NCBI GenBank assembly: GCA_963965975.1
Contig: OZ014411.1
Location: 8,371,501 to 8,435,500, forward strand
DNA length: 64,000 bases
DNA from: Xestospongia bergquistia
Taxonomy: Eukaryota > Porifera > Demospongiae > Haplosclerida > Petrosiidae
Direction: 5' to 3'
In this document: piece by piece, positions 1,449 through 41,144 of the stretch
Numbering within the stretch: position 1 is the stretch's first letter
How the letters are laid out: each line of letters opens with the position of its first letter
Position numbers and translations under genes: made by a program
Notes under the pieces: model-generated
Database searches by the model: none
What the model was told of the DNA's origin: nothing
What the model saw: only the letters and a program-made list of their open reading frames with translations

Positions 1449-3276
1449 ATGTCTAAGAAATATAAAACAGTCAAGAAGTAAGCTAATGTGTTTTCTAACT
1501 GTGTGTTGTCATTATTTGTTGAAAGGTTCGATTATGAGAATTTATTCGACCAACTTGAAAGCGAAAGGCAGTAAGCTTGTTGGCCGTTTCTACGCCTTAA
1601 ATTTATATCTCCTTGATTTACTTATAGAGTCATTGGTGGAGAAATTGACGAAGCTCGTGTGAACTGTCAAATCTGGAAGCAGTATGTCATTACCATTATA
1701 ATACACGTAAATCTACTTTTATTCATCAAACAAGCATGACTAGACACTAACTAACTTACACTAATTCTAATACATATGAATGATACTTTCCCAATCTATG
1801 GTGCATACTATGCAAGTACATATATGTCCTTCAAAATAACTTTTCATTCTATGCACTGATTCTCATATACATTTCCCTTATTTTTGTATAGACAAAATGA
1901 AGAATTACTACGAATCAATAGTGAACACCAGCAGTAAGAGTACTAAACTCTGATATATGAGCAACCTAATTATATACATTTTTATATAGGGACATTGATA
2001 TACTAATTGAAGAAAAAAAAGCTTTACGAAAAAGGTTTCATATTTTAAATGGAGATATAATAATGATCTCAGTGTTGTTGTTTTTAGACTAGAAAGCCAA
2101 AGCTTTACTTTGTCTGATGAACTTGTTAAAAGGCGTTTGGCATATTCGTCACACCATGGCAAAACGATCTTGAAAGTAAACCCTTTCTGTTACAATATAT
2201 GATTGATATTTTTCAATGAGGATACACATCGTCAACTTGTGAGAAAGATTATTCAAAGAGTTGGTGCCCACATTCAAAGTGTACTTCAGGTTCCTAAGGA
2301 GTCAGTTGTATCAATTGAAAATCACAAGGAGCAGTATAAAATATATGGTATACTACTTAGTGCATGTGTTTTAAAGCAACACAGATTAAAAGAAAGGAGT
2401 TCTAGCATTATAGATAAAGTAATAACATTTAAATCTAAACTACATTAGCAATAAGTACGTTATTCAGGTCTTGGAAACGGTATCTATTTCACACAAAGAG
2501 ATTATTAGACCTCATGTTATCAAAGCTGTTGAAATGACCCAGAAGATGTTGTTAATACTACCACCATTGATTATATGGAAACCACCAGAATACAACGAAC
2601 ATCTAGTAGATACCAATCGATTAACTTGGGATGAAACGACAAGAGATGGAGTATGTCTGAAATATTACCGTCCTGTTCTATTGTATGGAAACAATCTCCA
2701 TGTTGCAGTTAAAGGTTTGGTAGGAAACAAAGAATATAAAGCATTAGATGGAGAATCAGTAGATGAACTTACACACTCAACCAATGTCACATCTCAAGAA
2801 ATGGTCATTCATTCCCAAGGTTAGTCAAGCCCTCCATGATTGAATCATGATGTCACAGCCTTTACAATAGGCAAATGAGAAATAATAATGCGTGCAAGTA
2901 GCTTTAGTAGTTAAATAACTATAGATTTATATGATATTTTGGATTTGTCATTATCACCAGAACAAAGACATGATAACTCTTCAAGTTCTCTTGACAAAAA
3001 TGCGACTGGGATGCATAGAAATTCGGGACACCTAACTAGATCATTTTCATCTGGTTATGGTGAGTATTTGTTACTGTGTATTTTGCAAAAACCAACACAT
3101 ATGATAGCAATTATAATATAATTTCATAATTAGGACAACACAGTAACAGTCCATGTGCAAACAATTGTTATAAAGATCAACACAAACCAGATGTACGTAA
3201 TACAAAAATTTATGATCCTTGTTTATTAATAATTATTATCTAGGTGGAAAAAGTCACAAATCCAGGTTACCAGTGA
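1449..3276 (+). CDS. coiled-coil protein with MIEAP C-terminal-like domain (family copy 1)
   Basis: Eleven exons sum to 1044 bases (347 residues) with consistent phases. The start ATG at 1449 is preceded by an in-frame TAG three codons upstream. Residues 1 to about 100 are a charged coiled coil encoded by mini-exons of 45, 54, 42 and 45 bases, all phase 2. The middle exon (2221-2418) carries KEQYKIYGILLSAC. The exon 2468-2819 holds the conserved domain, with LLILPPLI, then YYRPVLLYG and VAVKGLVGN. That pattern (Pro-Pro after a helix, then a YxPVLxY strand and a VxxKGxV strand) is what I recall of the C-terminal domain of mitochondria-eating protein (MIEAP/SPATA18), which acts in mitochondrial quality control in vertebrates; the function here is inferred. 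A short Ser/Asn-rich tail ends at 3276. The last introns (3193-3243) are tiny, so the tail is the least certain part. The LIM gene follows 600 bases downstream on the same strand. Confidence 0.72.
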
Positions 3277-3878
3277 AGCCCTATACTTTGCAACAGGACT
3301 TATTAAAAATACTGCTATGGTTATATTAAATAATATTGTGCTATATTTTAATTTTAATTATAGTGAAGATTCCTTCTTCAGCACAGTGTTATATTTTGAT
3401 TAAATATATGGTTATTAAAAAAATTCAGTTGTCATTTCCTGTTCATGCATAAAATGTCAAGTCCATATGTGCATTCTTGAAACATACAAACAACAATCAC
3501 CTGCTTTTGTTTAACATTATAAACAACAAACTACTATTATTAAATTTGTCCTATAATTCATCGTTATACTGTGAAGCATTTGAATGAATAATATATGTTA
3601 TAATAATTGTATATGTAAGTATGAGTCTCATCAAAGTTTATAGTGGTTGTTTGACCTCGACGCTGTATGAAGTATTAGCTTACCTTATATGGTCATTGTA
3701 TATGGAACTGCAACACTAAAGTTCATTCCAAGAACTATGAATATTATTGAGTTGTGGACGTGCCTAAGGTATTAAAATTCGTAGAAACGTCTATGGTTCG
3801 GAGAACTAATTAAAGGCATTCATGAGTTTTAAAAATTGTCATTGCTTTGCTGTCGCTCGTATTTTATGAGAGAAGAGG
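3277..3878. other. spacer between two same-strand family genes
   Basis: About 600 AT-rich bases separate the stop of the MIEAP-like gene from the ATG of the LIM gene. They must hold the first gene's 3' end and the second gene's promoter. I recognise no specific element. Confidence 0.5.
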
Positions 3879-5465
3879 ATGGCTGCTGCTGCGAAATTGA
3901 AACTAGATGAAGCGCGAGAAGAATTTCGAAGGATATCTCAAGTCAAAGAACAGGAACAAAGGTTAGTTGTTCTTAACCACTTTTATGCTTGATTTCTGCC
4001 GCCCTAGACTTTTGAGAGAATATTATGAGCATAATAAAGACCTGAAAAGGTATTGTAAACTCACAGTGTCATTAATTGGTATAAACATTCTTCTTTCTAA
4101 TTTTAGACACAACAAGGTCTTAGCTAAACAAGCTTCTGCTCTAAAAAAGTATTGTAATTATTTATATTACTATTTTACTATATCTTTTAGAGAAGTTGCT
4201 GAACTCAAGCAAAAAGTAGAGGAGCAAGAAAGGCATGTAATTGATATGTGACATGTTCAGTTACTGAATCGAACTAACCATGCATAGATTTGACAGCTCT
4301 TCTCGAGATGCACGGAAAATGTATGGTGATATGATACCTGGAGGCATTACTCATCAAGATGTCACCTTACAATATACTAATCACTTTAAGGATGCTTTTC
4401 GTAACATACCTAAAGATCTGCCAAATGCCAAAAAGTATGAAGTATGGCAGATGTGTGCTGATATAATAGAAGTGAATTAATAATATAGTTTTTAAGATTT
4501 ATCTTATCCATACATTACAGGAAAGCTTTAAACAAAACAAAGAACTTATAATCACCAACATTGTTGAATCTCTTGAAGAAGCATTGTTGGACTCAAAAGA
4601 CACACTTGATGAAGACACAAATGATCTTCATCGTGCTTTTAAAATGTTTGTAGAGACAATGAAAGAAACCAAACAGTTGGAAGAAATTAAGCATCAGGTT
4701 ATTATTATTATTCATTTGTACATATTTATTATTATTGATTTTTTCCAATGAATTTACCAATGTGATTATCATTTTCACAGATGATTTGTCAAGGAGTGTA
4801 TGATGAAGCCACTTTAAATCTGGCAATGGACATCATTACAGAGCTAGACCCAGATGACTATCTATACTTTATTGAGACTGGGAAAAAAAGAAATCGAAGT
4901 GTTCAATCACAGCAATGCCAGTCAGAAATAAAACCTACAAAAGGTACACTGCATGCACAAACAAGTACAATTAATAACTTATACTAAGACTGTTTGCTTG
5001 TTTTTCAGCATTAAAAGATGAAATGGTTTGTGCAGCTTGTAAGAAGCATTTAAAGGAGAGGTATACTATATGCAGCATACAGTGTCTTATATATGATTGG
5101 TTTTACTATACTTAGGGAAAATCCTACCTATCACTTAGGCCAATACTGGCATACTATGCATTCATATTGTGGGATTTGTCGTAGAATGGTTGATGAGGGT
5201 TTTAAGTTTCATCAGAAAACTACATATTGCAGCAGTTGTTTATGTGTTAAATGTGAAAAGCCCATAAATGATGAGGTAAGGTTCATGATCTGAGAATTAT
5301 TGAGTGCATTAATTGTAACAGGTTATGGCAACAGACAATGGAAATTATCATCGTCAGTGTTTGTCTTGTTGTCACTGTGATAAACTAAAACGTGACATGC
5401 TGATAATAAATGAGAAATTTGTGTGCAAGTCTTGCTCACAGCGTTATTATACTATAATCAACTAA
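3879..5465 (+). CDS. coiled-coil protein with two C-terminal LIM domains
   Basis: Ten exons sum to 1089 bases (362 residues). After MAAAAKLKLDEAR the coil is encoded by three successive 42-base exons (4008-4049, 4107-4148, 4191-4232), all phase 2. Exon 5 (184 bases) carries the family signature ARKMYGDMIPGGITHQDV, and the 22.6 kb gene has an exon of identical length with the same signature. Instead of the MIEAP-like domain, the C terminus has two LIM zinc-binding domains. LIM1 starts CAAC, continues HSYCGIC and ends YCSSC. LIM2 runs CVKC, HRQCLSCCHC and ends VCKSC. LIM2 has all eight ligands, but in LIM1 the Cys expected three residues after HSYCGIC is Met. LIM domains bind proteins, often at the cytoskeleton or in nuclear complexes; no partner can be named. 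The intron at 4233 starts GC rather than GT. A broken copy lies at 10.15-11.75 kb. Confidence 0.82.
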
Positions 5466-7695
5466 ACTTTTAGTTAATTTAATTTTTGTTATTTAATTTA
5501 CCACACAATACTCAAATTATCATGCTTTGCCTTTAGTTATTAAATAAACAAGTTATTAAATATTTAATATATAAATATTTAATTTACTTTCAATTATGTA
5601 TTGTACTTGCATACATATATGTATTAAGTATTAAATATGATATTATATTTTCTATTGCTAAATGCAAGTACTTGAATTCTTAATTCTCTACTACTTAGAT
5701 TTCTTAATTATTCAAATTTATTAAAAGTTTAAGAACTGTATACTCAAATCTTCAGTCATCAAACTAGCTATCTACTAGACTAGAACACATAGATAGTCCT
5801 GCTAAAATATTATAAAGAAATGATATAAGTATATCATTCCTATACTAATGATGTGTATACATAAAAGTCTTCTTTTAGTCTGACAAATTATCGTTTCCTT
5901 TCACTTTAATTGCATCCCAACCTCACCATGGTGTGCACTCAAATGTGATCACATTATATCATGAGGAGATTGACAATAAGTCTAAACCTATTCATAAAGT
6001 TTGGTTATTAAAAATTAAGATCAGGAGCCCATAGCCTTGTAAAGAAGGAAAGACTGCCACTCAAAGCCGATCACAAATGCAGCATTAGGCAACCACAATT
6101 GTCTGTTTATTACCATATTTGGAATTTTAAGTACTTTTAAATAATGAACATGTTTAACTCACTATGAATAATAATTACATAATCATTTATATATGGCTAT
6201 TTACAAACAGTATGTTTGCATGATATTTCATTACATACTTGCACACTCCTTTCTCTTTTGTGGGACAATTGGCTCCTGTTAAGATACATATAAAGCTTTA
6301 ATTAATGACATATAGCATACGAGTTAAACATACTACTTTATTTTAATGATATCTGTTGAATTTTTCACACTAAATCTCTAGATATAATAAAGAGAAACTC
6401 TGAAGCTTGTGGATAACTTTTCAGTCAGAATGAAGTTTAGAACTTGACAATCCATTATCCTTTACTAGTGAAATTGGGACCTATCATTAAGGCAAGTACT
6501 ACCATATTACTACCATATAGATGTCACGTTATATGTCGTAACTCTGCAGCAAATTGATTGAATTATACAGCTGGAAGTTTACAATGTCTAAGACATATTG
6601 TTTTTCTTGTTTATGTATAACATGTGGACATCCCTTGGGTAATAGAAAGATATGTAGATATATTAGCACATCACTGTAAAAATTATTTATGTGTACAGGA
6701 CACAAAAACAGGTGTCCTAAACTTGTCTCAGTATACACATCCTTCTAGGCACACCTCTTCTGGAAGTAGTTAGTATCACACTTTAAAATTTTGTAAAACA
6801 CACTAAACTGTATATAATAGCAAAGGTGCGTAAAACACACACAACAGTAAAAGAAGTATAAGTGAAAAATGAGTAAATGAACAATCAATTTCTTCAAACT
6901 GAGTTAAGGTTGCTGAGAAGATGCCTCACAGTAGGTGATAGTTTCTTACTTATTGGACTTTCCAAAAAGAAAATCTCAAGAAATCGGTAGAGATTTTTGA
7001 ATCCTTTTGGATAGCATATGATATAGATGAAGTATGCTCCCAGTAATGTTAGTGGAGGACTTTGCTTCACTTCCATGACTATTTGACAGTCAACAGCTAA
7101 GTCAGTTTGGGCAGTGGCTGTTTAAACATGAGTGTGATAATTCATGGAAATAGCTATTCCTAGGAAAATGTCGCAGAATCATTTTCATTACTCATACATT
7201 GTGACTTTTCTAGGAATTACAATTCCCAGAATTATTGTAACAGCTATTACACCTCTCAAATTCCTCTTGATACAATTTATAGTGTAAGCTATAACTTTGA
7301 CTGTTGTTATAAGCAATTGTGTAAACATTCTTGGAAATGTTGCTGTATCTAGAAACAAGATGTTCTTAGAATCAACAATTTCCTTCTTTACAACTTCCTT
7401 CCAGGAATTGAGAGTAGTTGAATAAGCAGAATTATCAAGTTTATTTCTTATAGGCAAAAATTATTCAAAAATAATATTAGATGATGTAATAGTGCACAAC
7501 ACATACTAAAAGATATAGTTACATTAACAAACAATGACAATATGGACAAAATTTAATATATTATGTACATTTCTACTCTCAACTTTAATGACATTGTTAA
7601 TTTCTCTTCTATCTAGTTAGTAAAACTTAACTTTGTGTGCTATAGTAAGATGAACCAATAATTACAGTGAATTCTAAAACATGAACAAGATTGGT
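5466..7695. other. 2.2 kb intergenic stretch without a supported gene
   Basis: The LIM gene ends at the left and the minus-strand Hsp70 ends at the right, so this is a convergent intergenic region. A 60-codon minus-strand frame at 6894-7076 (with NLYRFLEIFFLESPISKKLS) looks protein-like in composition, and so does one at 7188-7457. I recognise neither, and neither has clear splice sites or a neighbour it would join. They may be relics of mobile elements. Confidence 0.35.
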
Positions 7696-10017
7696 TTATT
7701 GCTGTGCAGAAAGAAAGTCACACACAGTCTTCACTTCTTTCCCAGTTACACAATATTTTGCTTTAGCTTGTATTTCTGTGCCACTGAAATCCATTGATAT
7801 GTCAACACATCGCTGTTCTCTTGAAAGCTTGTTAGGATTTGGTATATCAATAACCAACTCACCTATTTTAGTAACAAGTGTGTCAGCTGTGTATTGGACT
7901 CCCAGCCGTGGAGTTGAATATAATGTGATGGTCATAGTTGTACTGTCGTCAATAGGCATCATGTCCATTGTGAATATTTCATTTGCATTTGCAATTTCTC
8001 CTTTTTGTAGGAAAACACAAAATATTTTGTTACAACGATATTCATCATGTTCCTTTATATAAAATCGATACTGCTGATCATGCTTGCTTTCATCAAAAGG
8101 CAAAGACACTGCTATTCCATAGGTTGCATCAGCACGTCTGGCTTTTATAACTTCAGGATGTTTTCTCCAAAGAACTGCTCCTTGTGCTACAGCAAGACTT
8201 GGTGAGGTTGGTATGATAATCTCGCACTGTAATTTCTTAGAAGAGTACAGTTCAGTTATTGGTTGCTTAATCTTTTCATAGACGTATTTGCAACCTCCAA
8301 ATCCACCAACTAGGTATATTGTATCAATCTGATACTCAATGTCGTTAAGTGCTTCAAGTGTTATATCAACAATTCCCTTCAAGGCAGGACCAAACAATTT
8401 ATTTTCTACTACTTCTTTCTCAATATACAATGTATCATTATCAAAATCAATCCCCTGTAATTTCTTCACAGCTTCTTCAATTTTTGCTTCTTTATAAAAA
8501 GATATGAATTTGTTTGGTAATCCAATTGCCATTTCAATTGCCTTCCCCTCTCCGAATAAAACTTTTTGATCCTCAAATTCTTTGAAAAGCAATTTATTTA
8601 AAATTGCCAATTGTTGTGAGTAATCTCCAGTTGTGATAAAAGAACTAAAACCTTTATCACCAACTATATCTTGAAGAATTATAGAGAACTGTTCATTTAC
8701 TTTTGTTCCACCCCATGAATTACCAGTTGGAATACTAATAACCTTGACACCACCGAGGACTTCAACATGAGCTGTAACATCAACTGTTCCGCCTCCAATG
8801 TCTAAAACCATGTACCGTGTCTTTGGAGGGATTAAAGACACAGATTTTGCATCTACTACTTCTTGACTTGTCATCTTTTGGCTGTAAATAGCTGCAGCTT
8901 CAGGCTCAAGAGCAAGGCATAATTTGTCTGGATTTTTCTCAATTGGATGTGGTAACTTATGACATGACACAGGAGTAAATTGTGTTATTCCACTTTCATT
9001 AGTTAACAGCCCTGCCTAAAAATTCATGAAGAATTTAAAATGTAAGCCAATAGATAAAATTATTACCAGATAAGCAGCTTCTCTCATCATTCTCTTTCCT
9101 CGTGCATCCCATATAGCAGGTACAGTAATAACCCAGTCAAAGTCAGTTGTCTTGAGAGGTTTAGTTCCTCGAGAGAGATGATCGATGAGAGTGACTTTTA
9201 AAACCTTCAATATGAAAGCAATAACTTCAACCAAATAAAACTTTCTTCCAGAGAATGACTTCACTATTGTTTGACGGTTGATTGTCTGTTTTGTAAGATA
9301 ATAATTAATTTGCTATTATAAATATAACTACAGATGTCTAAAAGCATGCAACAAACTGCTATCACATGCATTTACATTTAATAATCTTTGTAGAATGTCA
9401 ACATACTGTTGTATACATTTACAAATATTCTATATATATTACACCCACTTCTAAGCCAGCCAGCACTATGTACTCAAACGTGACATGATCAACCTCAGAA
9501 TAGAAACCATATATCTAACATGTATGGTTTGTAAAGTTCAAAATAGTGTGGTTTAAGCTAATTGTGGTTAATGCTTCTAAAAGAGGATGTTATCAGATTC
9601 AGTAAGTTGACTACTGAACATGCAACAAGCTAATGAAATTGTAATTACCTGATCTCTTTTCATCAACATCTTGATACGTTCAAAATAAATGTGTTTGGAA
9701 TAATTTTCTTGCTGCATTCTCATATAGCTAGTTTGGGCAGTTCCACCAATTGCAACAACTTCCAACGATTGGTCGTTGTCACGAAGAAGAATGGCATTTG
9801 CAACACGAGCAGACTTCGTGTCTGAATCCAACATTAGAGTGTTAGCTCCATGTTCGAGCTTATCTCCTCCTGTTATATAGGCCAAAGAAACGGATGTCGT
9901 GCCAAAGTCGATTGCAGCAATGTTGCCTTCACTAACTGGACACCCTGAGTCAGTTCGAGCAATTTTCGTTGCTCTTGTGAATGGTTCCTTGGACTCCGCT
10001 CCTACCACCAGAGTCAT
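7696..10017 (-). CDS. HSPA12-like Hsp70 family protein
   Basis: Three exons (9649-10017, 9067-9285, 7696-9015) give 635 residues, close to the 670-690 of vertebrate HSPA12A/B. The actin-like ATPase fold is visible: phosphate loop 1 AAIDFGTTSVSLAY near residue 35, WVITVPAIWDARGKRMMREA near 170, phosphate loop 2 VLDIGGGTVDVTAHV near 255, and VGGFGGCKYVYEK near 415. HSPA12 proteins are Hsp70 relatives with the nucleotide-binding domain but without the usual substrate-binding C-terminal domain. This one likewise ends soon after the ATPase region, with DFSGTEIQAKAKY. The substrate and cell compartment are unknown. Unlike the two relatives at 27-32 kb, this copy is uninterrupted and is the best reference for the subfamily in this window. 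The start ATG is the only Met upstream of the first loop in exon 1. Confidence 0.9.
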
Positions 10018-10149
10018 ACTAACAGAACAAATCGGTCAAATTGCTGAAATGTTATCAAGTATGGTTTACAATACAAAGTCACGTGAATAAGTGCTATAAT
10101 ATACGTTTGTACAGTGACACTTTAATTTCTCTGACGGTATAATTATGTT

Positions 10150-11745
10150 TCTGCTACACTAGAAAATGTGGAGCAAGAGATGCAAAAGCAGATCATGGAG
10201 GTTCACAAAGCTAATGAGTTAGATGTTCTAATAGAACATCATACTACATTACCTGCATGATATGTAGTCAGATAAGGTTCTCAAAAAGGAAGAAGGAGAC
10301 CACATGTACAAAGGTAAGAGATAATATATATGTTATATAATAGTGTCATTCGCCATTTAACGAGCAAAGAAAATGGACTGAAGAGACCAATGATTTGTAG
10401 AGATATATACATGCCTAAAGCTTAAGTAGTAATTGGTCATATTATTTTTTGGCATTAGTGAGATACAAAAGCTTGAAGAAGTCGAGATCCAAAACATTAA
10501 TACTTTAATGATTATTTCCACATATATTTTTAAAAGTATAGACTGACCAGTGCGCCTCAACATCCACATAAAATGTATGGTGATATGACACCAGAGATAT
10601 TACTCATCAAGATGTCACCTTAATATACCAAGTACTTTAAAGATACTTTCTGTAACATGCCCAAAGCTTTGTAACATAAAGACAAGTATAAATTTTGGCA
10701 AAAGTGTGCCATAGTACAGGTGAAGTTAGCTAAATAAGCCACACTTCAAAATATTACTTGACGATGAAAGGGATTGACTAATAATTAAATCATGTATATT
10801 TAAGTATAAAATATGTAACTCAGTTATGATTAATATTCATAGCCTTTTCCAGGAAGCCACAACTATAAATAAAGACAATATCATAACTTGTTGTCTTCAC
10901 ATAGAAGAAAACAGAGAGATGGTCATCTCTACTATGGTAAATTGTCATCAGAAAGTACTTACTGATAAATCTGACTATCTCAGTGAAGAAATAACAGATC
11001 TACATGGAGCCTTCAAAATGTTAATCAATGATATAAAAACGAAGACTCTGGCAAGTAACCAAAAGTCATATGTTTTAAAGTAAAATGTATACATGTGCTT
11101 GAAATTATACACTATTCAGGTGGCTGCAGATCATGAGATGTCTGTTCCTGATGATGTATGTAACTAGATAATTGATGTTATAATGAATCTAGATCCTAGT
11201 GATTACATTCACTTTATTAAAACTAGGAAGACAATAAAAGAAAGTACAACTGCCGAGAACTGACTATAAGCAAATGCTTGCTAGTAATGAATAATTATTA
11301 CTTTAAAATCATTACTTCTTAATAGCTGAAAGTGTTAAAAATATATGTGTCCTGCTTGTAAAAGGAAGGTCAAGGAAAAGTAAACTTATATACTACAAAA
11401 TAAAATATATTAATTTCCCATGGCTCATAGATCTCGAGATGAAGTACCTCAGTATCACTTAGGGGAATATTGACGTAGATAACGTATGTATTATGCTACT
11501 TGGATGTGGTGGAAAGGTTCAAAATCTTGATCTGTTCAGTTTGTATTTTGATCATACATATTGTGTGAATTCTTTATCCAAAGCTTCTGGCAAACCTATT
11601 GAAAAAGAGGTAAAATGGTTTACAAATCCATACATGAATTTTTCTTTGCAGTGATGACTGAAATAGGCAAACTCCATTTGCCATACTTTCAATGCCACAG
11701 ACGTCATCATTATGATAAAAAATTGATGATAATAAATAACATGTT
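10150..11745 (+). pseudogene. broken copy of the LIM coiled-coil gene
   Basis: Pieces match the intact gene at 3.9-5.5 kb in order. A charged coil lies near 10165. A KMYGDMTPE signature lies at about 10572. A DLHGAFKMLINDI stretch near 11000 matches DLHRAFKMFVETM. Then come a stretch ending in DPSDYIHFIKTRK (original DPDDYLYFIETGK), CPACKRKVKEK near 11350 (original CAACKKHLKER), and a decayed LIM pair to about 11745 with DKKLMIIN (original KRDMLIIN). Stops and frame changes occur in most exons, several LIM cysteines are lost, and the coil is only partly recognisable. Exon order and intron positions are kept, so it arose by DNA-level duplication and not by retroposition. Confidence 0.8.
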
Positions 11746-12690
11746 TTTACATGTGTTATCATTGCTACAAACCTTATTAAGCTATTAACAGGTAAGCAAA
11801 AAAAAGATGTTATATTCATTACAAAGATAAACTATTATTTGCATAGATCTACATACAAGGAAAATTATATTTGTCTATGCACACTCTTAAAATTGATTGG
11901 TTAATTTAACTAATACATGGTTATACAGGTTACATATGCAAAATTAAACATTTTACTATTTTGATTACTAATGTATTATGAAATTGATAGCTATGTAGCT
12001 ATATAAACAGTAGTATATAGTAATGAAAACAATATTATGATTACTTTTTGACAAACATAACTTTGCAATGGAAACCTATATAACCAACTTATCATTAAAT
12101 CAACACTAAATTTGTTCAATGTAGAACATGACTTTTTAAAAGTTGAAATGCAATTGATAATCACATAACATAACAAGTAATGTTGTGGATTTTAGCAAGC
12201 AACTTAATTCAATATTAATGAACTGCGTTAACGTTTAATTACATTCAAGTGTAATTCAAGTGGAAATAATGCATTTCTGTCATTGTTGTTTTGTCAATAA
12301 GACTTTGTAACATGATAAATGTATTTATGTCATACTGTGGTTTTAGCTTGATTAAGATTCAATTCTTTCAAATAGTGTTTTGGTGAGAGGGATTATGTTT
12401 TTATTATGTATCTAGTTCTCATGTTGATCACCATTATTTACTTAAGACAGTTTAGGAACTTCACTAGGCAATGAATAAACTACCCACCTACTTTGGAGAT
12501 GACTATTCCTGAAATCAGTTCAACTTCTCTGCCAACTAGAATCAGTTCTTCATTTTCCCAACTTAATCATTGTTACTAGGCAAGGGATGAAGAGAAGTTT
12601 TATTTCTAGTAATTATTGTTACTAATAAGATCTCTCATATTTCCTCCAACAAAATTCATAGCTTTTTAATGCATAATATCAAGTTCTACA
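11746..12690. other. AT-rich sequence with an old trace of a dispersed repeat
   Basis: At about 11920-12000 the sequence reads like a diverged copy of part of the repeat found at 19.8-20.6 and 29.3-30.2 kb: both contain ACTATTTTGATTACTAATGT-like text followed by a TATGxAATTGA segment. No coding potential is seen. Confidence 0.35.
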
Positions 12691-12699
12691 TGTATTTTA

Positions 12700-14910: not shown

Positions 14911-16388
14911 ACTTTCTCCATCATCTTATTGAATGAATGAGCCACATTGCCCTGTTCAGTACTGGTACTTGACTTTGAGTTCTGACCAAAAACTCTCTGA
15001 ATTGCATGTCCCTCCAGAAAACGTTTGTCAATTTTTCCTTTTTTTCTGGAGCTTCAAACAACATTCTAAATGTCCTATATGACATCTTGGTTCGAGGTTT
15101 TACTAGCCTTTTGGAGCAATATGATTGGCATTACCATGACAGCTTTTAGGGCAATGCTTAAAATTGTTATATCTTCTTGCTTCCTTCAATATTGTTGACC
15201 TCCTTGTAGCAACTGATTTCCTGTAGGTTTGTTTCAATCATGGGTAGTAACTCATGTAAATATATCTGAAAATGTGAATAAGTTCATTAGCCTTATGACT
15301 TATTTTATCATGAATAGTAATACACTGGCAATATTTATATATATATTTTAATGTCCTATAGTCAATGTCTACATGATTATAGAACAATGCTTTGAGTATG
15401 AGTACATTCAACTTCCTGAAGTTGTTGTTCTGTCCAGTATGCTGGAGAAGCAATGAAACTAGGCTAGTCCTTCCTTTTCTGTTTTTATTGTAATGACTTT
15501 TTCACATACATGCTGTTCTCCAAATGCCAGTTTGAGGGCTCTCTGCTATGGATGTTCTATTATCAAAATTGTATGAAGCACATTCCCAGTTTGAAATTTT
15601 CCTTCTTTTACTTAAGCTCATCCATCTCTTTACTAATATATACTTGACATTTGTAAGTATCAATTCCATTTGCTATGACATCATCTATACCCACACAATC
15701 ATAATGATACCATAATCATAAAAAGACACTTTGAAAGATATCTCACATTAGAAATGACAAAATACAACTAAATTTAGTCCTACTTTTAAGTATCAGAAGC
15801 TAATTTTATTTATAGATATCTTCCCCACCCAGTAATAAGACTATTTGATCAATTTTTAGGACATTTCCTCTTATTGTTGGCTTATTGAGTCCATTTCTCG
15901 TGAATTGCTGTAATAATGTATATTCAATAGTAGCACACATTAAATGATAACACTTTGTATGTGGTAAGGCATTAAGATTATGTATTTGCACATGTATATG
16001 CTTACAATAATCTATGTTTAGTTTGTTTTTTTAGAATGGAACACAACATGATCTAATGTAAGGAATTAAGGAGAATTTTACTGAAGGCCAGGGACTACTA
16101 GTTTCTAGATTATTATTTATGCTAACAATTTCAAGCTGAAAATGCTGTTATATAGGAAAAAAGGAAGAGTGATATATGAAATTTATAAAGCAAAGTTTTT
16201 GAAAATGAATTGGCTATCATTTATAATATATCAACTAAATCGATGGAATGTTCTGTCTAACACACAATGTTGTTAAATCTTCAATACACAGCTTCTACCC
16301 TATCAAAAATTTTTTGAGCCACAAGTATTTAATAAGGCGTGGTTTATTTGTTGGTGCTGCTACAGAGTACTCTAACGTCCTCTCTCTA
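14911..16388. other. probable further retroelement debris and spacer
   Basis: The first few hundred bases may continue the minus-strand retroelement upstream of its RT. The remainder is AT-rich without a recognised frame. A run of short minus-strand open frames (15238-15453, 15806-15991) has low-complexity translations and no known motif. Confidence 0.3.
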
Positions 16389-20893: not shown

Positions 20894-20936
20894 AATTATA
20901 TGTGTTAAAGGTTTGGTAGACAGTGTATACAGTGAG

Positions 20937-22606: not shown

Positions 22607-22746
22607 ATGGGTAACTACCTTGGATCAGGTGAATGGACCTTGGAAGACGTTGACAGAGAAGTAAAAGAGGCTGTAGGGGCAATTTCTAAAGAAATACAAC
22701 GTGTGCTTCAAGAAAATGTGGATAAATCCTTTAAAAAGTAAGTGCT

Positions 22747-22778
<32 letters not shown>

Positions 22779-27147: not shown

Positions 27148-29245
27148 ATGACCCGGAGAGATTTATTTACTGTGGCACTTTTTAAAATGGCCAGTGGAGG
27201 ACCTATTGACATACAGCAGTTACGCCTAGTTAGTCTGACGGGAGTCTATGTTAAACCAAAGGAGCCTCTATCAAGAGCTAGTAAAGTAACTCGATCTGTC
27301 TCGGGATATAGAACAACCAATAACAACATAGCGGCGATTGACTTTGGGACTACTTCTGTGACGTTGTCTTACACTACTCTTAGGGACAAAGAAGTTAGTA
27401 GTCTGACATTAGACGAGGCGAATAAAGATACACGAGTCCCAAACTCAATTTTACTCCATAAAAACGACAAAATATTTTCAATAGCTTCGTTTGGTAACAA
27501 CGCTAGAGAAATGTACACAAGGATGCGTGCCACTGACAAAGAAAAGTACGTGTACTTTGAAAGGATCAAGATGCTTATGAAGAAAGAACAGGTATAACAA
27601 ATGTAAAATAAATTATATGCATTTTTGTATACATTTTATAGACAATTGATCGTCAAAGTGTAGTTGAGTCGTTCACAGGAGAAAAATTTTACCTTTTAGA
27701 AGTAATTGCTTTTATCTTAAAGCATCTACGAGACTGTTTAATTGACCACTTTGCTCGAACTGTTAAACCACTCAAGACCTCAGACTTTGACTGGGTCATC
27801 ACTGTACCTGCTATATGGGATGCACGAGGGAAGAGAATGATGAGAGAAGCTGCTTACCTGGTAAGACCTCTTACTTTTATCAAATTAAAGTTTTATTGGG
27901 TAATTAAACACAGGCTGGACTATTAGCAGAATCTTTAGGAATAACTCAACTAACACAAGTGGGTTGTAAGCTACCTTGTCCAAACGAAGTTAATCCTGAT
28001 AAGTTATCACTTGCTCTTGAGCCTGAAGTAGCAGCTATTTACAGTCAGCAGGTAACTGAAAAAGAAGTAGTTGAAGCAGGAACATCATTTGAAAAGCCAA
28101 AAGGGAATTATATGGTTCTTGACATTGGTGGTGGAACAGTTGATATAACTGCTCAAAGTGTGGTAGATGGTAGTATTGAAGTTCTTACTATTCCTGTGGG
28201 AAATGATTGGGGAGGTACTCGAGTAAATGAACAATTTTCTACTTTTTTGGCTAAACTTGTACAAGATCCAAATTTTTCTTCTTTTCTCTCTTCTGCTAAT
28301 CAAATACAACATAGAGCTGTTCTAAACAAGCTTCTTTACCATGAGTTTGAATTGCAGTAATATCAATTTGGCAATGGAAACCTGCATGATGATGAAATGA
28401 TTATAGACATTCCTAATGATCTCATTAAGTTTTACAATGCAAGCAAATTGAGGGAGGGAGCAGAGTCTGTTCCTGGTGTTGAATTTGACAATGACAGTCT
28501 TTACATTAAAAAAGAAGTCGTTGAGGAAACATTGTTTGGTCCACCAGTAAACGGAATTGTTAGCTTCATGATGGCTATCCTGGACAATTTTGACCATCAT
28601 ATTGACACAATATATCTTGTAGGTGGATTTGGAGGTTGTAAATATCTTTATGAAACATTGAGAAATGAAATTCATAAAAAATTTAGCAGAACCAGCTGTA
28701 GTATTATTGTACCAACATCACCTAAATTAGCTGTTGCTGTAGGAGCTGTGATGTGGAGGAAAAATCCAGATCTCATTAAAGCCCGAAGAGTTGATGCTAC
28801 CTATGGCATTGGTATTTCAACTTCATTTAATGATGACATACATGATCACCACTATCGTTTCTACAATGAAGAGCAGCAATGCTATAGATGTAACAATGTT
28901 TTTAATGTTTTTGTACAAAAGGGTGAAAGAGTACAATCTGATGAGGTGTTCACGACAGATATAACACCAGCTTATCAATTTAGAACTAAAATGAAAGTTG
29001 ATATCTGGTCTACACCATTTCTAGGTGTTGAATATACAAAAGATAAAGATGGAAAAAGGAATGTTACAAAGATTGGTGAACTTGTTATTGATATTCCAAA
29101 TCCAGACAACCTTCCTCGAGAGAAACGAGTTGTTGGTGTTACTATGGACTTCAGTGGTACTGAGATACAAGCCAAAGCAAAGTATCGTGTTAATGGAAAT
29201 GAAGTTAAAACTGTTTGTGACTTTTTGTCTGCACAAACAGAATGA
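27148..29245 (+). pseudogene. HSPA12-like Hsp70, tandem copy 1, one in-frame stop
   Basis: The exon plan is that of the 7.7 kb gene: exon 1 27148-27591, exon 2 27642-27860 (219 bases in both genes), exon 3 27914-29245. Motifs AAIDFGTTSVTLSY, WVITVPAIWDARGKRMMREA, VLDIGGGTVDITAQ and VGGFGGCKYLYE are all present. A TAA at 28358-28360, after HEFELQ, interrupts exon 3 at the site matching the Lys of EDQKVLFGEG in the 7.7 kb gene. The frame is open on both sides, so the stop is a point change. No intron that would remove it is apparent. Translation would end after the first half of the ATPase domain. Read-through or a truncated product is possible, but a recent pseudogene is the plainest view. Both ATG 27148 and ATG 27187 are possible starts. 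Confidence 0.82.
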
Positions 29246-29334
29246 TTGCTTGTTTGTTTTTGTATGTGTACATTAACATTTTGTTTCCTTACCCTTAGGT
29301 TAGAGCTCTTTTATTCAAAAGCTGAATGTTTATC

Positions 29335-30155
29335 ATGCTATTTTCGAATAAAGGTTGTGTGTAATAATTAGAAATTAGTAAGTCATTATTTGAATGAAAT
29401 TGGCAGTATGATTGGACATTATAGTCACTGCATCTCTTAATAACATGTAGGTCATATAATATCCAAGGAAATTTTTGTAAGTGCTATATGTTTTTTTTTT
29501 GAATTAATGTTTTTATGCTTATGCTTATTATCAGTCAATCATTACAGATTATAAACTACTATTAAAAGATTATTAATGCCTCTTTAAATGATTAATATTA
29601 GCTAAGTTAAAATTAAGTTCAAGTTGATTGAAAACTTTTTCAACCTCAAAATACAATGGGCTTTTATTTACTGAGTGAAGAAATACAAGCAATGTTTGCT
29701 AACAGATTTGGCTTCATGTTGAACAATCTATGAGCCTGGTCAATTCTATTGTAGTCTTGAAATTTGTGCTTTCTGAGATCTCAGAAACCACTTAATATCT
29801 ATAAATTCATTTAGTATTGTTATTGTTGTAAAAGTTAATTAACCAATATATGCTTATACAGATTGCATGATAGTAGCAACTTACAAATTAGTGAACTTAA
29901 TACTGTTTTGATTACTAATGTACTATGGAATTTGACTGTTTAGGTAATTGTTAGAACTATGATGACTTGTTTATTTTAGACAGGGTTATTACTATATGAG
30001 ATTCATACATGCACTCTTCAAGGTATTTGTAGGAATACATGCTATGGAATTACTCAAAACCATTTATATAATAGTGGACTATGTGTTACTTGTGTGTGTA
30101 TATTGTGCACACACATATATACATGTAACACATGGTCCAAAACAATCTTAGGTTT
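29335..30155. repeat. ~820-bp dispersed repeat, copy B
   Basis: It matches 19793-20611. It begins right after the shared 3' flank of Hsp70 copy 1 (which diverges from copy 2's flank near 29327) and stops right where homology to copy 1's 5' flank begins (TGACTCTACATTCATGACCC). It therefore exactly bridges the two tandem copies. Confidence 0.8.
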
Positions 30156-30167
30156 GACTCTACATTC

Positions 30168-32246
30168 ATGACCCGGAGAGATTTATTTACTGTGGCACTT
30201 TTTAAAATGGCCAGTGGAGGACCTATTGACATACAGCAGTTACGCCTAGTTAGTCTGACGGGAGTCTATGTTAAACCAAAGGAGCCTCTATCAAGAGCTA
30301 GTAAAGTAAATCGATCTGTCTCGGGATATAGAACAACCAGCAACAACATAGCGGCGATTGACTTTGGGACTACTTCTGTGACGTTGTCTTACACTACTCT
30401 TAGGGACAAAGAAGTTAGTAGTCTGACATTAGACGAGGCGAATAAAGATACACGAGTCCCAAACTCAATTTTACTCCATAAAAACGACAAAATATTTACA
30501 ATAGCTTCGTTTGGTAACAACGCTAGAGAAATGTACACAAGGATGCGTGCCACTTACAAAGAAAAGTACATTTACTTTGAAAGGATCAAGATGCTTATGA
30601 AGAAAGAACAGGTATAACAAATGTAAAATAAATTATAAGCATTTATGTATACATGTTATAGACAATTGATCGTCAAAGTGTAGTTGAGTCATTCACAGGA
30701 GAAAAATTTTACCTTTAGAAGTAATCTACGAGACTGTTTAATTGACCACTTTGTTCGAACTGTTAAACCACTCAAGACCTCAGACTTTGACTGGGTCATC
30801 ACTGTACCTGCTATATGGGATGCACGAGGGAAGAGAATGATGAGAGAAGCTGCTTACCTGGTAAGACCTCTTACTTTTATCAAATTAAAGTTTTATTGGG
30901 TAATTAAACATAGGCTGGACTATTAGCAGAATCTTTAGGAATAACTCAACTAACACAAGTGGGTTGTAAGCTACCTTGTCCAAACGAAGTTAATCCTGAT
31001 AAGTTATCACTTGCTCTTGAGCCTGAAGTAGCAGCTATTTACAGTCAGCAGGTAACAGAAAAAGAAGTAGTTGAAGCAGGAACATCATTTCAAAAGCCAA
31101 AAGGGAATTATATGGTTCTTGACATTGGTGGTGGAACAGTTGATATAACTGCTCAAAGTGCGGTAGATGGTAGTATTGAAGTTCTTACTATTCCTGTGGG
31201 AAATGATTGGGGAGGTACTCGAGTGAATGAACAATTTTCTACTTTTTTGGCTAAACTTGTACAAGATCCAAATTTTTCTTCTTTTCTCTCTTCTGCTAAT
31301 CAAATACAACATAGAGCTGTTCTAAACAAGCTTCTTTACCATGAGTTTGAATTGCAGTAATATCAATTTGGCAATGGAAACCTGCATGATGATGAAATGA
31401 TTATAGACATTCCTAATGATCTCATTAAGTTTTACAATGCAAGCAAATTGAGGGAGGGAGCAGAGTCTGTTCCTGGTGTTGAATTTGACAATGACAGTCT
31501 TTACGTTAAAAAAAGAAGTCGTTGAGGAAACATTGTTTGGTCCACCAGTAAACGGAATTGTTAGCTTCATGATGGCTATCCTGGACAATTTTGACCATCA
31601 TATTGACACAATATATCTTGTAGGTGGATTTGGAGGTTGTAAATATCTTTATGAAACATTGAGAAATGAAATTCATAAAAAATTTAGCAGAACCAGCTGT
31701 AGTATTATTGTACCAACATCACCTAAATTAGCTGTTGCTGTAGGAGCTGTGATGTGGAGGAAAAATCCAGATCTCATTAAAGCCCGAAGAGTTGATGCTA
31801 CCTATGGCATTAGTGTTTCAATTCCATTTAATGATGACAAACATGATCACCACTATCGTTTCTACGATGAAGAGCAGCAATACTATAAATGTAACAATGT
31901 TTTTAATGTTTTTGTACAAAAGGGTGAAAGAGTACGATCTGATGAGGTGTTCACAACAGATATAAGACCATGCTATCAATCTAAAACTAAAATGAAAATT
32001 GATATTTGGTCTACGTCATTTCTAGGTGTTGAATATACAAAAGATAAAGATGGAAAAAGGAATGTTACAAAGATCGGTGAACTTGTTATTGATATTCCAA
32101 ATCCAGACAACCTTCCTCGAGAGAAACGAGTTGTTAATGTTACTATGGACTTCAGTGGTACTGAGATACAAGCCAAAGCAAAGTGTCATGTTAACGGGAA
32201 TGAAGTTAAAACCGTTTGTGACTTTTTGTCTGCTCAAACAGAATGA
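30168..32246 (+). pseudogene. HSPA12-like Hsp70, tandem copy 2, several lesions
   Basis: This copy is about 98-99 percent identical to copy 1 over most of its length, with exons at matching places. It shares the TAA after HEFELQ (31358-31360). In addition, exon 2 lacks about 20 bases near 30717-30727 compared with copy 1, which breaks the frame, and an extra A near 31511 shifts the frame of the second half. Its native upstream region is replaced by the dispersed repeat. It is a pseudogene. The shared stop shows that the stop arose before the tandem duplication, while the other lesions are younger. Confidence 0.88.
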
Positions 32247-33690: not shown

Positions 33691-33717
33691 CTGTTAATTA
33701 AATAATTTACTAAGTTA

Positions 33718-35389: not shown

Positions 35390-38300
35390 ATGGAAACGAA
35401 AAAGTAAGTCAATTAGTGAAGTAGTCACTTAATAGTACACTGTCCTGTACTTTACCCCAGTTTAGTGTATTAATGTTAATCTGGTATTATGCTATATATA
35501 TATATATATATATATCACTGAAAGCTACCTAGATAAGCATAGTTTATTTTAAGACAACATCCTCAATGTCATTTAAAGAAGGAGGAACTTGCTAAACCAA
35601 GAAAAATGTTGTGTGTGCACACATTTCATGACTGAATATCATAATATACTCTATTGTAGCTAATCTAACTATGTGTGACTGTGCATACTGTATTTTTAGA
35701 ACATAATGGACAATATATATAGACCAGGACAAAGTGTATCAAAGTAAATTTTTAACAAATAACAAACTTGACAGACCACACCTACTATATCAATATGTCT
35801 GCAATCTGTCATCAGTCCAGTATATTCCATGTAAAAGTGGTACAGACCATTATAGGACACTGCCTAGTTCTGACTTGTTTTGACTCTGTGCGTAAATGTA
35901 GGGCAAATAACAATTTGACATTTGCTATGGACCTGATAAATTTCATAATTCATAAATGTATCTTTCTCGAGTATTGTTTTCAAAAAGCTTCTAGCCTTAA
36001 GTTTAAAGAAACATGACAATTTGTTGTTACATTACATTGAGGAACTAAACAATTAACTCATAATGCCTCATTTTAAGAAGGTTTGAGTAGTAATTGTTCA
36101 GTCTGTGATTCTCTAGACTACTGTGATAAGAGGCCTAGCTACAATAATATTTGTTTATTCTGTGACATTGCAATCTGGAATTTAGTATGGTCATTGACAA
36201 CAACACTATAGCAATAATGTCATGATGAACTAAGTAATGACAATAAATTGGATTAAATATGGTTGCTTATTAAATTCAAACTTCGTTTTTTCAAACTATT
36301 ATTGTCAATCATACAGTATATATATGTCTGTTTATACAGAAAACATTTAATGAAGTGATTTTATATGTATTTTAGTCATGTAAAGAACTTCATGTATGTT
36401 AATCCTTGATCTTGTATTAGCTAGTCACTGTATTATTAGCTTGGAAGACAAGGATATGATTCTCACACATTAATTAACGTTTTTGATAGTTAAATTTCAG
36501 TTGTACTCGTTTGTTATTGTATAGGTCTTCTTTTCTGACTAGGAAAATTGATGATCTTAAAGTAATGAAAAGAGTTTTAGAAGAGAGAGTGAATCACAAG
36601 TAGGTTTAGATAATACATAGTTCCACCAATAGTGTGATTGTAACCAGATGATTACTTGTTGTGGTAATAATAATACAATCTAGTACATTTATGAGACTTA
36701 GTCCATTAATGTATAATAATTTCATGTTACAGATCTTGTCCAGTATCTTGTAATCAAGTCAACGACCGCAGTAATCCATTATATAAAATATTGTCAAAAA
36801 AATCTTCAATAACATCCAAACAAAATGGCCTTTCTGATTTACAGGTACTTGTGTTCATTTTATAATTATAATGACAATTTTGTAATCAAGAATGATAGCC
36901 AATTGTTATACTTAATACATTTAATTGAGTACATATTATGTACATTTAGTTTATAGGAAAAATGTTACTAATGAAAAGCACTAAAATGTAGGATCCTTTG
37001 CTGCTTGAGTAGCTATTGAATTTATCTCATGGACATAAATTGTCTTTTACTTTCTCATTTCCAAACATTCAGTTGTTTTTGATAAATATGAATACATGCA
37101 AGCAAATCACATGATCCACATCTTAGTCAAGTAGGTGTGGCCTCAATGATCATTTGCTAAAACTGAAACAAACTAAGAAAATCGTTATAACTTCTAAAAG
37201 AAACGTTTTTATGAAGCTTCTTATGTTGAATTTAATTGTATTTTATAGACACAGGAATTTTATTAGAGTGATTGATACTTTTATCTTGACTGTGCTTTTT
37301 AAATCTTTTCAAGCATCAGAGTTCTTCAACAACCTTTTAACTAGAATGAATCCAGAAGTCTGTACATTTGATGTTTGTCTGTGTGCATTTAAACCAGTAC
37401 ACTGTTGTTGCTAAGTGAAAGTGTTCATTGGCCAAAAGAGGGGAGGTTTAGTAGTGTACTTGTTTTGTTTACATGCTACTATAATTGGTATTGTTAATGT
37501 TATAAAAAGTCTTAAGTTCTTGTAATTTATATACATATATATATATATATATATACTTGTAGAGGGCATATGATCAGTGTATTGATGTTGTACTGGATGG
37601 TATGAAGGACAAACTAAGAGAATTTCTGACTGGACCAGATGATATTGATACCAGTGGTAATACTACATCTGAAACTAAACAAAAGGAACAATACAAATCA
37701 TATGGACTACTATTGAGTGCTTGTAAAATTAGGGACAAAAAAGAAACTGCTGTGGATAAAGTAAAGAAAAAGGTCAGTAGACAGTTGGTATATGTAGCAA
37801 AAATTAACTTATGACAAACTAGTTGACCCAAAAAACTTGAGCAAAATAAATTATAGCCTTGTGCTTTGTGATGGCACCCTTCACATCTACACATATGTAT
37901 TATATAACTAACTTCAATATTATGCATGTTCCTATAATACAGTGTGTTGATCTATCAAAAGACACCAAATAGCATTTACACAGTATCAACCACAATATGC
38001 AACATAAAAGACATACCAGTGAAATCAGTTATAAACAAGTATAGCTTGACAATTTTAAAAATTTTATCCTCCAATATTATTCAAGGTGTGGTAGTAGTAG
38101 GTGGAGCAAGTGGTGAGTATACTTTTCACATTGTTTTTAGCTGTCTTTACAAATATTTTATAAGAACAGTAAAGTTTCTGAAATCTTTTGTCTGATGTTA
38201 TAACAATTATAATCCGAAATAGTCAGTTGTTAGCTTCTGTAGTCTCACTTACAAGATCAAAGATGTTACCCCTCCTTACAGTGTATGATGTGTAGTTTCC

Positions 38301-41144
38301 TTTCTGTGAAATGAACAAAATCTGTTTAGTCTGTGCTCAATTTCAGAGCATCAAAATGAGGTTACAAAGGTTCACCTTGTTGTTTTTATTTTTGGTAGTA
38401 TTCCTGGAGTGGATTTCATTTGTTAATACAATGAAGTAATACACTTTGAAACTTAGTAGATAATAGTTTCATCATAAATGTCCATACATTTTATTGGGAT
38501 ATTGAGAAAAAGGAATTGTTATAGTCTCCATGGACAATACTGGATATGTTCAATCCATTCTTACCAATTAAATTTTGACCCACAAAGCAATAAAGGTTAT
38601 TATTTTTAGATTATGTTTTCACTCTTTAATGCCATTTTGAAATCATTAATCATTATTACTAGTAAAAGTAATTCCCTAAAATAACATTCTTTGTTCGTAT
38701 TAATGTTACACTGAGTGTTGGTGACATTACATAATTACATACCATAAGTTGCTATAATTCATTTTGACTGAATTAGTATCAATGAATTAATAATAATAAC
38801 TTATTATTTCTATGTATATATATATTTTGTTCTTTTGTAGGTCCTGACAGATATGATGGGAAAATATTCTTTGTCTCCTACTAGTCAGGATACTGTTCAT
38901 GAATATGTCTTGAAAGCAGTAAAATTAACACAAACAATGCTCACATTATTACCACCTACAGTGGTTGTTATACCTCAGTCTTATGATGACTTGTTACAAG
39001 ATACTAATCGTGCTACTTGGAATGAAAAGAAAGTAGGACCTCATGTTAAAATAACTCATTATCGTCCTGTCTTGCTCTATGGCAATCATGCTCATGTGGC
39101 TGTGAAAGGATTGGTTGGCAATGACAAACTAAGGAACGAAGGGACAAGTTGTAATACTTCATTACCTACTACTAGTGCCACTGCTTCTAAAGTTGAAGGA
39201 GCTGAACCTCAAACAAAATCAGATATACTTGTTACAAGTCACAAACCACTCTCACCAATATCTGCATTACCAGTTACAGCACAAGCTTCAATTAAACAAT
39301 CTAAACAAGAAACTCCACATTGTTCTACATTCTCTGCAGATTTTCATGGGAAACAAACACCAACTCATTATTCAATCAGCAGAACCTTGCCAACTAATAG
39401 AGAGTTAGTGAATAAGACACACCCTTCCAAGACACGCACTTCTAAAGTTGAAGATCCTAAACGTCATACAAAATCAGATGCACTTGTTACAAGTCATAAA
39501 CCACCCTCACCAATACATGCATTACCAGATACAACACAAACCTCAAATAGGCAATCTAAACAAGAAACTCCACATTGTTCCACGTACTCTGCAGATTTTC
39601 ATGGGAAACAAGTCCCAACTCATACAATCAGCAGAACCTTTCCAACTAATAGAGAGTTAGTGAATAAGACACAGCCTCCCAAGACACACACTTCTAAAGT
39701 TGAAGATCCTAAACGTCGTACAAAATCAGATGCACTTGTTACAAGTCATAAACCACCCTCACCAATACATGCATTACCAGATACAACACAAACCTCAAAA
39801 AATAGGCAATCTAAACAAGAAACTCCACATTGTTCCATGTACTCTGCAGATTTTCATGGGAAACAAGTCCCAACTCATACAATCAGCAGAACCTTTCCAA
39901 CTAATAGAGAGTTAGTGAACAAGACATCACAGAGTTTAAGTCTTCCATGCCCACCTATTTCAAACAATCTGGTACCCTCAGTTACATCACAACTTTCATA
40001 CCAAGTTACTAATGTAATATCATCAAATAAATCACAGCAAGTACATGAAAGTTGTCCATTGACAACTAACTCACCTATATCCTCACTACAAGTAAGCCAA
40101 AATGATGATAGCGTTCTACATCATGCAAATACCAGTATTGCATCTATACCTCTTCCATCATCAAAGCGTCCAGATGTTGACTCTGTGAGAACAAGATGTT
40201 ACAGGATATCTTTAAGTCAATCTCCACCATCTCCTCACAAAAAATCACCCATGACGAAAGAAGTATTAAGTCCGACACAAGATGACAGCATAATTCTCAG
40301 TACTCCTGTCATTAAAGAGTCTCCATCTCCCAGGATGCCTGCCTTGTATAAAGAAATTCTGCCTAATCCTCAAGCCCAAAAGCATACAAATTCTAAAACC
40401 ATTAGCCCTGAGATTAAGCCATTCTTAACAACTGATTATCCTAGAAAAGCAACAAATACTTCTTCAAGCGTTACTCATGCTACTCAAAGTATTTCTACTA
40501 AGTATGTGCCATCCACACCAAGATCATCGAATAAAAAAACTAAAATATCAGTTTGTCCTGCTGTTTCTCAAGAAATTTTACCTAGTATACCATATGTAAA
40601 TCTCCATTCTAGCACAAGGCAGAACCAAAAAACACCACCTACCAGACAAAGACAATCTCAATCACAACGTCAAAGAATAAATCAACAACAATCTGTTACA
40701 AACAATCCATCACGACGTCATCCAATGAAACTGAGATCTAAGAAAAATATGCCAGCTTCATCTCCAAATTCAAAAGGTAGGATTATTTTAATTGCATAAC
40801 TGTTTAAATAAAGGCTTAAATGTAAAAGACACACACACACATATATATAAACTTTTCTGTATATAGTCTGACCACATAAAAAATCAAGAATTATAAAGAT
40901 GACTTTATGAAAGTATAGGAAGTTTCTAATGTCATCATTACTGTCTTTTTTGTTTAATTTATGCTACTTTGATTGAGTGTTAAGGAAATTGTTACTTCAC
41001 CAAAAATGACATTTATTACAAGTATACAATGATTATTTGTAATCATGTGGTCATAGTTAGCAACATGTACAACATATTTTATCCTTTTATTTTGTCTATT
41101 TAGAGCGAGTTCATCAATCATCACATGGAGAATATCGTACGTGA
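35390..41144 (+). CDS. coiled-coil protein with MIEAP-like domain and long Ser/Pro/Thr tail (family copy 3)
   Basis: From ATG 35390, six exons (35390-35403, 36525-36599, 36733-36844, 37563-37772, 38841-40776, 41104-41144) sum to 2388 bases (795 residues). The frame is open upstream to 35192, so additional N-terminal coil exons are likely and the start is uncertain. A short coil (KIDDLKVMKRVLEERVNHK) precedes the middle exon with KEQYKSYGLLLSACKI. The MIEAP-like domain opens the long exon: LLPPTVVVI, then HYRPVLLYG and VAVKGLVGND. It is followed by about 550 residues rich in Ser, Pro, Thr, Lys and Gln, surely disordered, including three 84-residue repeats. Basic runs near the end (RRHPMKLRSKKN) could serve as a nuclear signal. 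If the last intron were kept, the protein would end a few codons later at 40799. The function is unknown beyond the family inference. Confidence 0.75.
35493..35515. repeat. (TA)n microsatellite
   Basis: About 11 TA units in the intron following 35403. A similar run lies at 37537-37555, just before the 37563 acceptor. Confidence 0.9.
39184..39940 (+). repeat. three in-frame ~252-bp tandem repeats in the tail exon
   Basis: Units begin at CTTCTAAAGTTGAAG at 39184, 39439 and 39691 (spacing 255 and 252), so each encodes 84-85 residues. Recurring peptides include TKSDALVTSHKPPSPIHALP, KQETPHCS, YSADFHGKQ and PTNRELVNKT. Units 2 and 3 are nearly identical and unit 1 is older. The third carries one extra Lys codon. 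Length polymorphism between individuals is expected. Confidence 0.95.

Follow-up and report, generated by a model that had tools for sequence, protein, structure and literature searches.

Among the literature matches listed, most work on Mieap is in mammals, where it is treated as a p53-inducible mitochondrial protein. Vertebrate Mieap has been reported to form mitochondrial condensates, for which its C-terminal half is required; binding of cardiolipin-related lipid has been proposed for the hydrophobic C-terminal half, and contact with enzymes for the coil region (PMC10845071). The family is greatly expanded in bivalves, where the Mieap orthogroup OG24 is reported to hold 807 genes, averaging 53.1 per species across 15 bivalves compared with 0.6 across 17 others, and where HSP70 is also greatly expanded (OG10, 1,096 genes) (PMC8382680). 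In mussel gills the Mieap Pfam term is reported as over-represented (PMC5549309). Here we describe a 64,000-nucleotide stretch of the genome of the sponge Xestospongia bergquistia (contig OZ014411.1, positions 8,371,501 to 8,435,500 of the forward strand, hereafter the window) carrying four genes, A to D, of a clustered family. On profile and gene-structure evidence, the tail of these genes is MIEAP-like and we take the cluster to be a diverged branch of the MIEAP (SPATA18, PF16026) domain family. Like SPATA18, family members place a coil before a helical domain, after which comes a C-terminal piece that ends near KG-x-V; their domain introns have phases 2, 0 and 0, and three paralogues exceed the Pfam cut-off. 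Unlike SPATA18, the cluster genes are strongly diverged and expanded in a cluster, carry a MYGD motif at the domain start, have coil exons of symmetric phase 2 that are often 42 or 45 bases long, and in part bear LIM or kinase-like additions.

Gene models were assembled by hand, exon by exon and without transcripts; window features are given in window coordinates and lie on the forward (+) strand unless stated otherwise. Gene A (1449-3276, 11 exons, 347 residues) has its coiled-coil exons first and short 3' exons last, with a 2-to-0 exon at 2088-2175, the exon that we call hx at 2221-2418 and a MIEAP-like tail exon at 2468-2819. Gene B, of the LIM type (3879-5465, 10 exons, 359 residues), runs from the coil through a MYGD exon (4288-4471), hx (4521-4697) and a truncated MIEAP-like tail exon that holds the first helix only (4781-4943) to the LIM exons (5009-5060, 5116-5275 and 5322-5465). 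Gene C (22607-25361, 8 exons, 507 residues) opens with an N-terminal exon encoding MGNYLGS, which we take to fit the N-myristoylation pattern, followed by coil exons, a MYGD exon (24008-24191), hx (24239-24451) and a MIEAP-like tail exon (24537-25361) whose 3' region is acidic. Gene D (35390-41144, 6 exons, 795 residues) starts with a coil exon and continues with a short 2-to-0 exon (36733-36844), hx (37563-37772), a MIEAP-like tail exon that includes a long basic Ser/Thr/Pro-rich region (38841-40776) and a last exon at 41104-41144. All four frames are open after splicing and have a single intron-phase plan in common, in agreement with a preliminary description of the window that had proposed four intact genes on one chassis. 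The coil exons that separate the first exon from the 2-to-0 exon run from phase 2 to phase 2 and measure 33-75 bases, often 42 or 45; 42 bases correspond to two heptads. The coil is followed by the phase 2-to-0 exon, then by hx (the phase 0-to-0 exon preceding the tail exon) and by the tail, which starts in phase 0. It should be noted that exon 4 of gene B is in frame only with a GC donor at 4233.

The assignment to the MIEAP family is carried by the paralogues. A PF16026 match at E<=10 was obtained for half of the family members scanned (11 of 22; lowest E 1.2e-8), whereas each of the other 23 Pfam families that came up did so in a single member. When ten of the 22 were rescanned, seven matched PF16026 and three exceeded the curated cut-off of 27 bits (35.7, 30.4 and 29.0). 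The same genome contains a conventional MIEAP gene on another contig, C13 (contigs are labelled C1, C7, C8 and C13 here), which scores 149.4 bits. A PF16026 scan of the whole unspliced genome at E<=10 gave eight matches, two of them exons of the C13 gene and five inside the cluster family (16.8-22.3 bits, all below the cut-off). In the reverse direction, the hidden Markov model (HMM) of the family reached the C13 protein at 25.4 bits (maximum of 2000 shuffles, 7.4) and hhalign aligned the two at E 9.4e-7 and 3.1e-7; these matches are located in the tail, where identity is about 21-23%. The hx plus tail of the paralogue at C1:8.339 Mb scored 33.2 bits against PF16026. Gene structure points the same way: in both the C13 gene and this paralogue the middle intron falls at profile position 44/45 and hx starts in phase 0 at position 45 (residue 2 at 46), and their last introns lie within about 6-8 positions of each other, by extrapolation. 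The domain intron phases are 2, 0 and 0 in both the C13 gene (by eye) and the window genes. Because the paralogues match PF16026, the window genes are placed in the MIEAP family with them, and the PF16026 matches, the reverse HMM match and the shared intron together indicate a diverged MIEAP branch in which the MYGD exon is probably the start of the domain.

This last point changes how the MYGD exon is seen. As the preliminary description had reported, genes B and C have in common a 184-base MYGD exon, of phase 2 to 0 in both, and the resemblance is well above chance (local score 101 against a maximum of 48 in 20,000 shuffles; 21 of 61 residues identical); a genome-wide search with the gene C query also matched the gene B exon at E 2.4e-4. 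The absence of this exon from genes A and D was only partly borne out: the motif is absent, but exons of 88 and 112 bases, of phase 2 to 0, stand at the same position. Judging from the Pfam coordinates and the conserved intron, the MYGD exon is thus probably the start of the MIEAP domain and not the separate module that it had been taken for.

To estimate the extent of the family, the genome to which the window belongs (146 Mb, 21 contigs) was searched with queries from genes C, D and B and loci were counted by hand; the counts are lower bounds, as only the best candidates were scored. At least 22 tail loci lie within 533 kb of C1 (7.877 to 8.411 Mb), not counting a weak match at 8.024 Mb (E 0.32), with at least three more on C8 and, on C7, at least ten that are weaker (E 1.8e-5 to 0.8), so that the family is not local to the window as first supposed. 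MYGD exons number at least 17 on C1, the window pseudogene included, and at least two on C8. Eight further loci are of the LIM type without a full tail, which brings C1 to about 30 loci besides the pseudogene, again as a lower bound. Among the stop-free exons of the paralogues, both splice signals were above threshold in all 18 MYGD exons and in 28 of the 31 hx exons, one of these 31 coming from the window pseudogene; this agreement is a consistency check only, because the script that picks exon ends assumes these phases. The ratio of nonsynonymous to synonymous substitution rates (dN/dS, Nei-Gojobori) was below 1 in all eight sampled pairs (0.16-0.59): 0.19-0.24 in three C-type pairs, 0.41 and 0.59 in two A-type pairs, and 0.33 between gene B and the paralogue at 8.330 Mb (MYGD plus hx only). 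A search of a protein database with two queries gave nine matches, one being the window's own tail exon and the rest unnamed. The one remaining match of the PF16026 genome scan lies far from the cluster, at C1:19616630-19617073 (-), in an open frame of 804 residues (22.8 bits, sub-threshold).

The LIM-type genes keep the beginning of the MIEAP-like domain. In gene B the LIM part matches PF00412 at 40.4 bits, above the cut-off of 22.9; a scan of the gene B protein against NCBIfam gave no match at E<=0.01. We considered whether the LIM exons could be a separate gene and rejected this, as 10 of 10 gene B exons are in one frame; it is also disfavoured by the paralogues at C1:8.324 and 8.330 Mb, which have LIM exons after the truncated tail exon. 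A profile of hx plus the next exon from six LIM-type sequences aligned across the intron with hx plus tail of 13 members, up to the LPP (Leu-Pro-Pro) helix (E 5.3e-7; the score of 43.0 compares with at most 19.4 in 200 column shuffles), and the LIM-type genes are therefore MIEAP-like up to LPP. After this helix the MIEAP-like part of the B-type genes ends, with LIM taking over in genes such as B, and the complete MIEAP C-terminal part is absent. The preliminary description had genes B and C ending differently, and indeed the end is LIM in one and MIEAP-like in the other; a swap of the whole tail does not fit, however, since gene B keeps the MIEAP-like part to LPP. LIM exons are present in the B-type genes of the window and at C1:8.324 and 8.330 Mb, with weak matches at 7.957 and 7.964 Mb (E 0.012 and 0.041). 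In three other B-type genes (8.183, 8.205 and 8.302 Mb) the truncated tail exon runs into a stop, and the block of DNA conserved among them terminates at or near it; LIM was not found downstream (1.3 kb examined for 8.183, more for the others). These three LIM-type paralogues end with neither the MIEAP end nor LIM, and two pairs from this trio have dN/dS values of 0.16-0.17.

Two other paralogues carry both endings, which contradicts the proposal of two alternative tails. L045 (C1:8.333 Mb) splices into 376 residues comprising hx, the full tail, a linker and two LIM domains. L056 (C1:7.877 Mb, 696 residues spliced) begins with a kinase C-lobe, followed by a 45-base and a 42-base coil exon, the 2-to-0 exon, hx, the full tail and then several LIM domains. 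The tails of both were assigned from family searches. PF00412 scored 43.2 bits on the LIM part of L045 and 63.6 on that of L056, and 36.2 and 55.4 bits on the spliced proteins (cut-off 22.9). The kinase-like part of L056 matches PF07714 at 28.7 bits in the spliced protein (cut-off 23.1), over the C-lobe only, and PF00069 at 28.7 bits spliced, below the cut-off of 31.7, and at 32.1 in a single piece. The N-lobe is encoded upstream of L056 and may be without catalytic residues; in the unspliced pieces of locus L093, by eye, HHDLTANN replaces HRD and no clear beta-3 Lys is present. The domain may thus be a pseudokinase, as read from these motifs. Like LIM kinases and LIM adaptors, gene B has a LIM pair that passes PF00412 and L056 joins kinase-like and LIM parts in one frame; the order in L056 is kinase-like, MIEAP-like, LIM, whereas in LIM kinases, as described, LIM and PDZ precede a kinase at the C-terminus (PMC10730565). 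Within the window, protein kinase pieces at 16239-18394 (+) resemble, by eye, the kinase-like part of L056, and an A-type tail fragment lies 2.5 kb downstream of them. LIM-like matches that lie between two tail loci, at C1:7887226-7887453 (E 0.002) and 7894943-7895194 (E 0.26), both (-), are possibly further LIM members of the cluster.

How the LIM and MIEAP-like endings came to be combined can be read in two ways. One reading, to which we give slightly less than an even chance, is that a duplicated chassis acquired LIM exons by shuffling repeatedly, as separate events in the B-type genes, in L045 and in L056. In its favour, LIM genes occupy three places in the family, and the tail tree does not place L045 and L056 as sisters (two changes), although that tree is weakly supported in large part (8 of 27 inner branches starred). 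By eye, the second LIM intron of gene B is at a different position, but the LIM pairs of L045 and L056 have two intron positions and phases in common. A genome search with the B-type query (E<=1, best candidates) did not have the LIM parts of L045 and L056 among its matches, whereas a local search did connect the LIM of gene B with that of L045 (E 0.018). The tree of MYGD plus hx counts against this reading. It held 15 rows, one of them with MYGD only, and left out one near-copy, the pseudogene and two C8 exons; LIM-type and MIEAP-tailed MYGD genes are separated in it by a single split (100/99), and there was therefore no repeated exchange between these two groups. The tail exchange after duplication of the preliminary description thus stands for the contrast between LIM and MIEAP-like endings and falls for repeated exchange between B-type and other MYGD genes.

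The other reading, plausible to us though short of even, is an ancestor in which the coil, MYGD, the MIEAP-like domain and LIM were all present, most descendants having lost LIM and the B-type genes the end of the domain. A full tail plus LIM in two separate branches fits such an ancestor, and loss of the end is seen in the three B-type genes that have nothing beyond the truncated tail; the MYGD exon also looks old in view of its occurrence in C8, C-type and B-type genes. This reading nevertheless requires LIM to have been lost separately several times among the tail loci, and the LIM sequences of gene B and L045 are not close.

Several results weigh against the assignment of the family to MIEAP and against parts of the exon plan. 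Proteins A to D (the last of them up to residue 318) gave no PF16026 match at E<=10 and Pfam scans of single window exons gave no MIEAP match; the core of gene C was among the three of ten rescanned members without a match. The MIEAP likeness of the preliminary description is thus confirmed by Pfam for the three paralogues over the cut-off and not for the window proteins themselves. The MYGD plus hx of the best paralogue (C1:8.339 Mb) was unmatched by PF16026 once the tail was left out, and no direct profile match was obtained for roughly the first 40 residues of the MYGD exon or for the motif itself. The whole spliced proteins of L045 and L056 did not match PF16026 at E<=1, and the hx-tail part of L056 alone reached 13.9 bits (E 0.053). 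Pairwise, the hx exons of genes B and C were not above chance (10,031 of 20,000 shuffles scored as high), their homology being detectable only with profiles. Coil periodicity was only weakly above shuffles, of which 46 (A), 243 (B) and 115 (C) out of 2000 reached the observed value. An AlphaFold model of the tail from eight sequences was poor (mean predicted local distance difference test score, pLDDT, 44.5), and the A1 profile had two matches only in the PDB (E 0.028 and 0.035), which we took as chance. That the MIEAP-like end (PP, RPVL, KG) is a convergent short helix-plus-hairpin motif in a family unrelated to MIEAP would agree with the unmatched window proteins, the low tail identity and a family profile that reaches the C13 protein through the tail only, but is very improbable and strongly disfavoured given three members above the cut-off with matches spanning hx and tail, and given the score of the C1:8.339 Mb paralogue and its intron position and phases in common with the C13 gene.

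As a whole, the data are in our view best explained, with somewhat better than even probability, by a clustered and diverged MIEAP branch that encodes coil-assembled scaffolds in which the 3' end sets the output and which act in stress. Each protein would self-associate through its coiled coil, the MIEAP-like part would bind a partner or membrane lipid, in line with the proposal for vertebrate Mieap, and the variable 3' end would determine the output of the scaffold. The acidic end of gene C (183 residues, net -20) or the basic Ser/Thr/Pro-rich stretch after the tail domain of gene D (551 residues, net +38) might give condensate-like scaffolds; the LIM fingers of gene B might recruit protein partners, and in one paralogue the output may pass through a kinase-like domain plus LIM. 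By analogy with the bivalve Mieap expansion, a response to stress or damage would be the most likely role. A more far-reaching version, which we regard as doubtful, is that in this cluster a lipid-condensing scaffold of ancient MIEAP type became a modular set of signalling proteins for stress or innate defence; coil plus MIEAP-like platforms, some bearing disordered tails, others LIM adaptors or a kinase-like domain plus LIM, and one form truncated and bare, would then serve as interacting sensors and adaptors. Some 30 diverged loci, part of them with LIM or kinase-like additions, suggest that the MIEAP-like domain is an evolvable platform; in the naturally truncated versions the helical and C-terminal parts of the domain are separated, and the additions point to testable partners.

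The cluster resembles bivalve OG24 in being a large Mieap-type expansion with HSP70-like genes among its members, and differs from it in the LIM or kinase combination, none being mentioned in the excerpted bivalve account (PMC8382680). Among the open-licence literature matches listed, no description was found of MIEAP-like plus LIM combinations, in line with the earlier statement that LIM on this chassis is undescribed, nor of Mieap with a LIM plus kinase architecture. A topic search for joint Mieap and HSP70 expansion had Mieap in none of the open-licence matches listed, those on sponge mitochondria-eating protein genes or duplicated LIM genes held nothing on topic, and the accession PF16026 was absent from the open-licence literature.

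The window also contains decayed relatives of these genes. At about 10159-11771 (+) lies a LIM-type pseudogene with stops, related to gene B and closer to the C1:8.330 Mb paralogue, and at 20904-21044 (+) a fragment corresponding to the 3' part of the gene A tail exon plus the beginning of the next intron (75% DNA identity, E 6e-24), both as had been predicted. A broken LIM exon remnant with stops (6479-6643, +) lies downstream of gene B. The gene D tail exon holds a tandem repeat (39184-39926, +) of 2.9 copies of a 255-base unit, a multiple of three, and scattered, decayed partial duplicates of the gene D 3' end follow at 41473-45432 (+), the best piece being 41473-41945 (86%).

HSP70-like genes, which we take to be HSPA12-like, are interleaved with the MIEAP-like genes at 7696-10035 (-), 27112-29245 (+) and 30129-32246 (+), and relatives stand beside other cluster members at C1:8.316 and 8.336 Mb. 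Pieces of the three window genes were unmatched by Pfam HSP70 at E<=0.01; one of the pieces has a weak match to an actin-like ATPase family. Finally, an open frame at 46094-46972 (+) matches the alpha-1,6-fucosyltransferase FUT8 (PF19745, 154 bits), and a FUT8-like partial copy is seen by eye near 42.73-42.96 kb.

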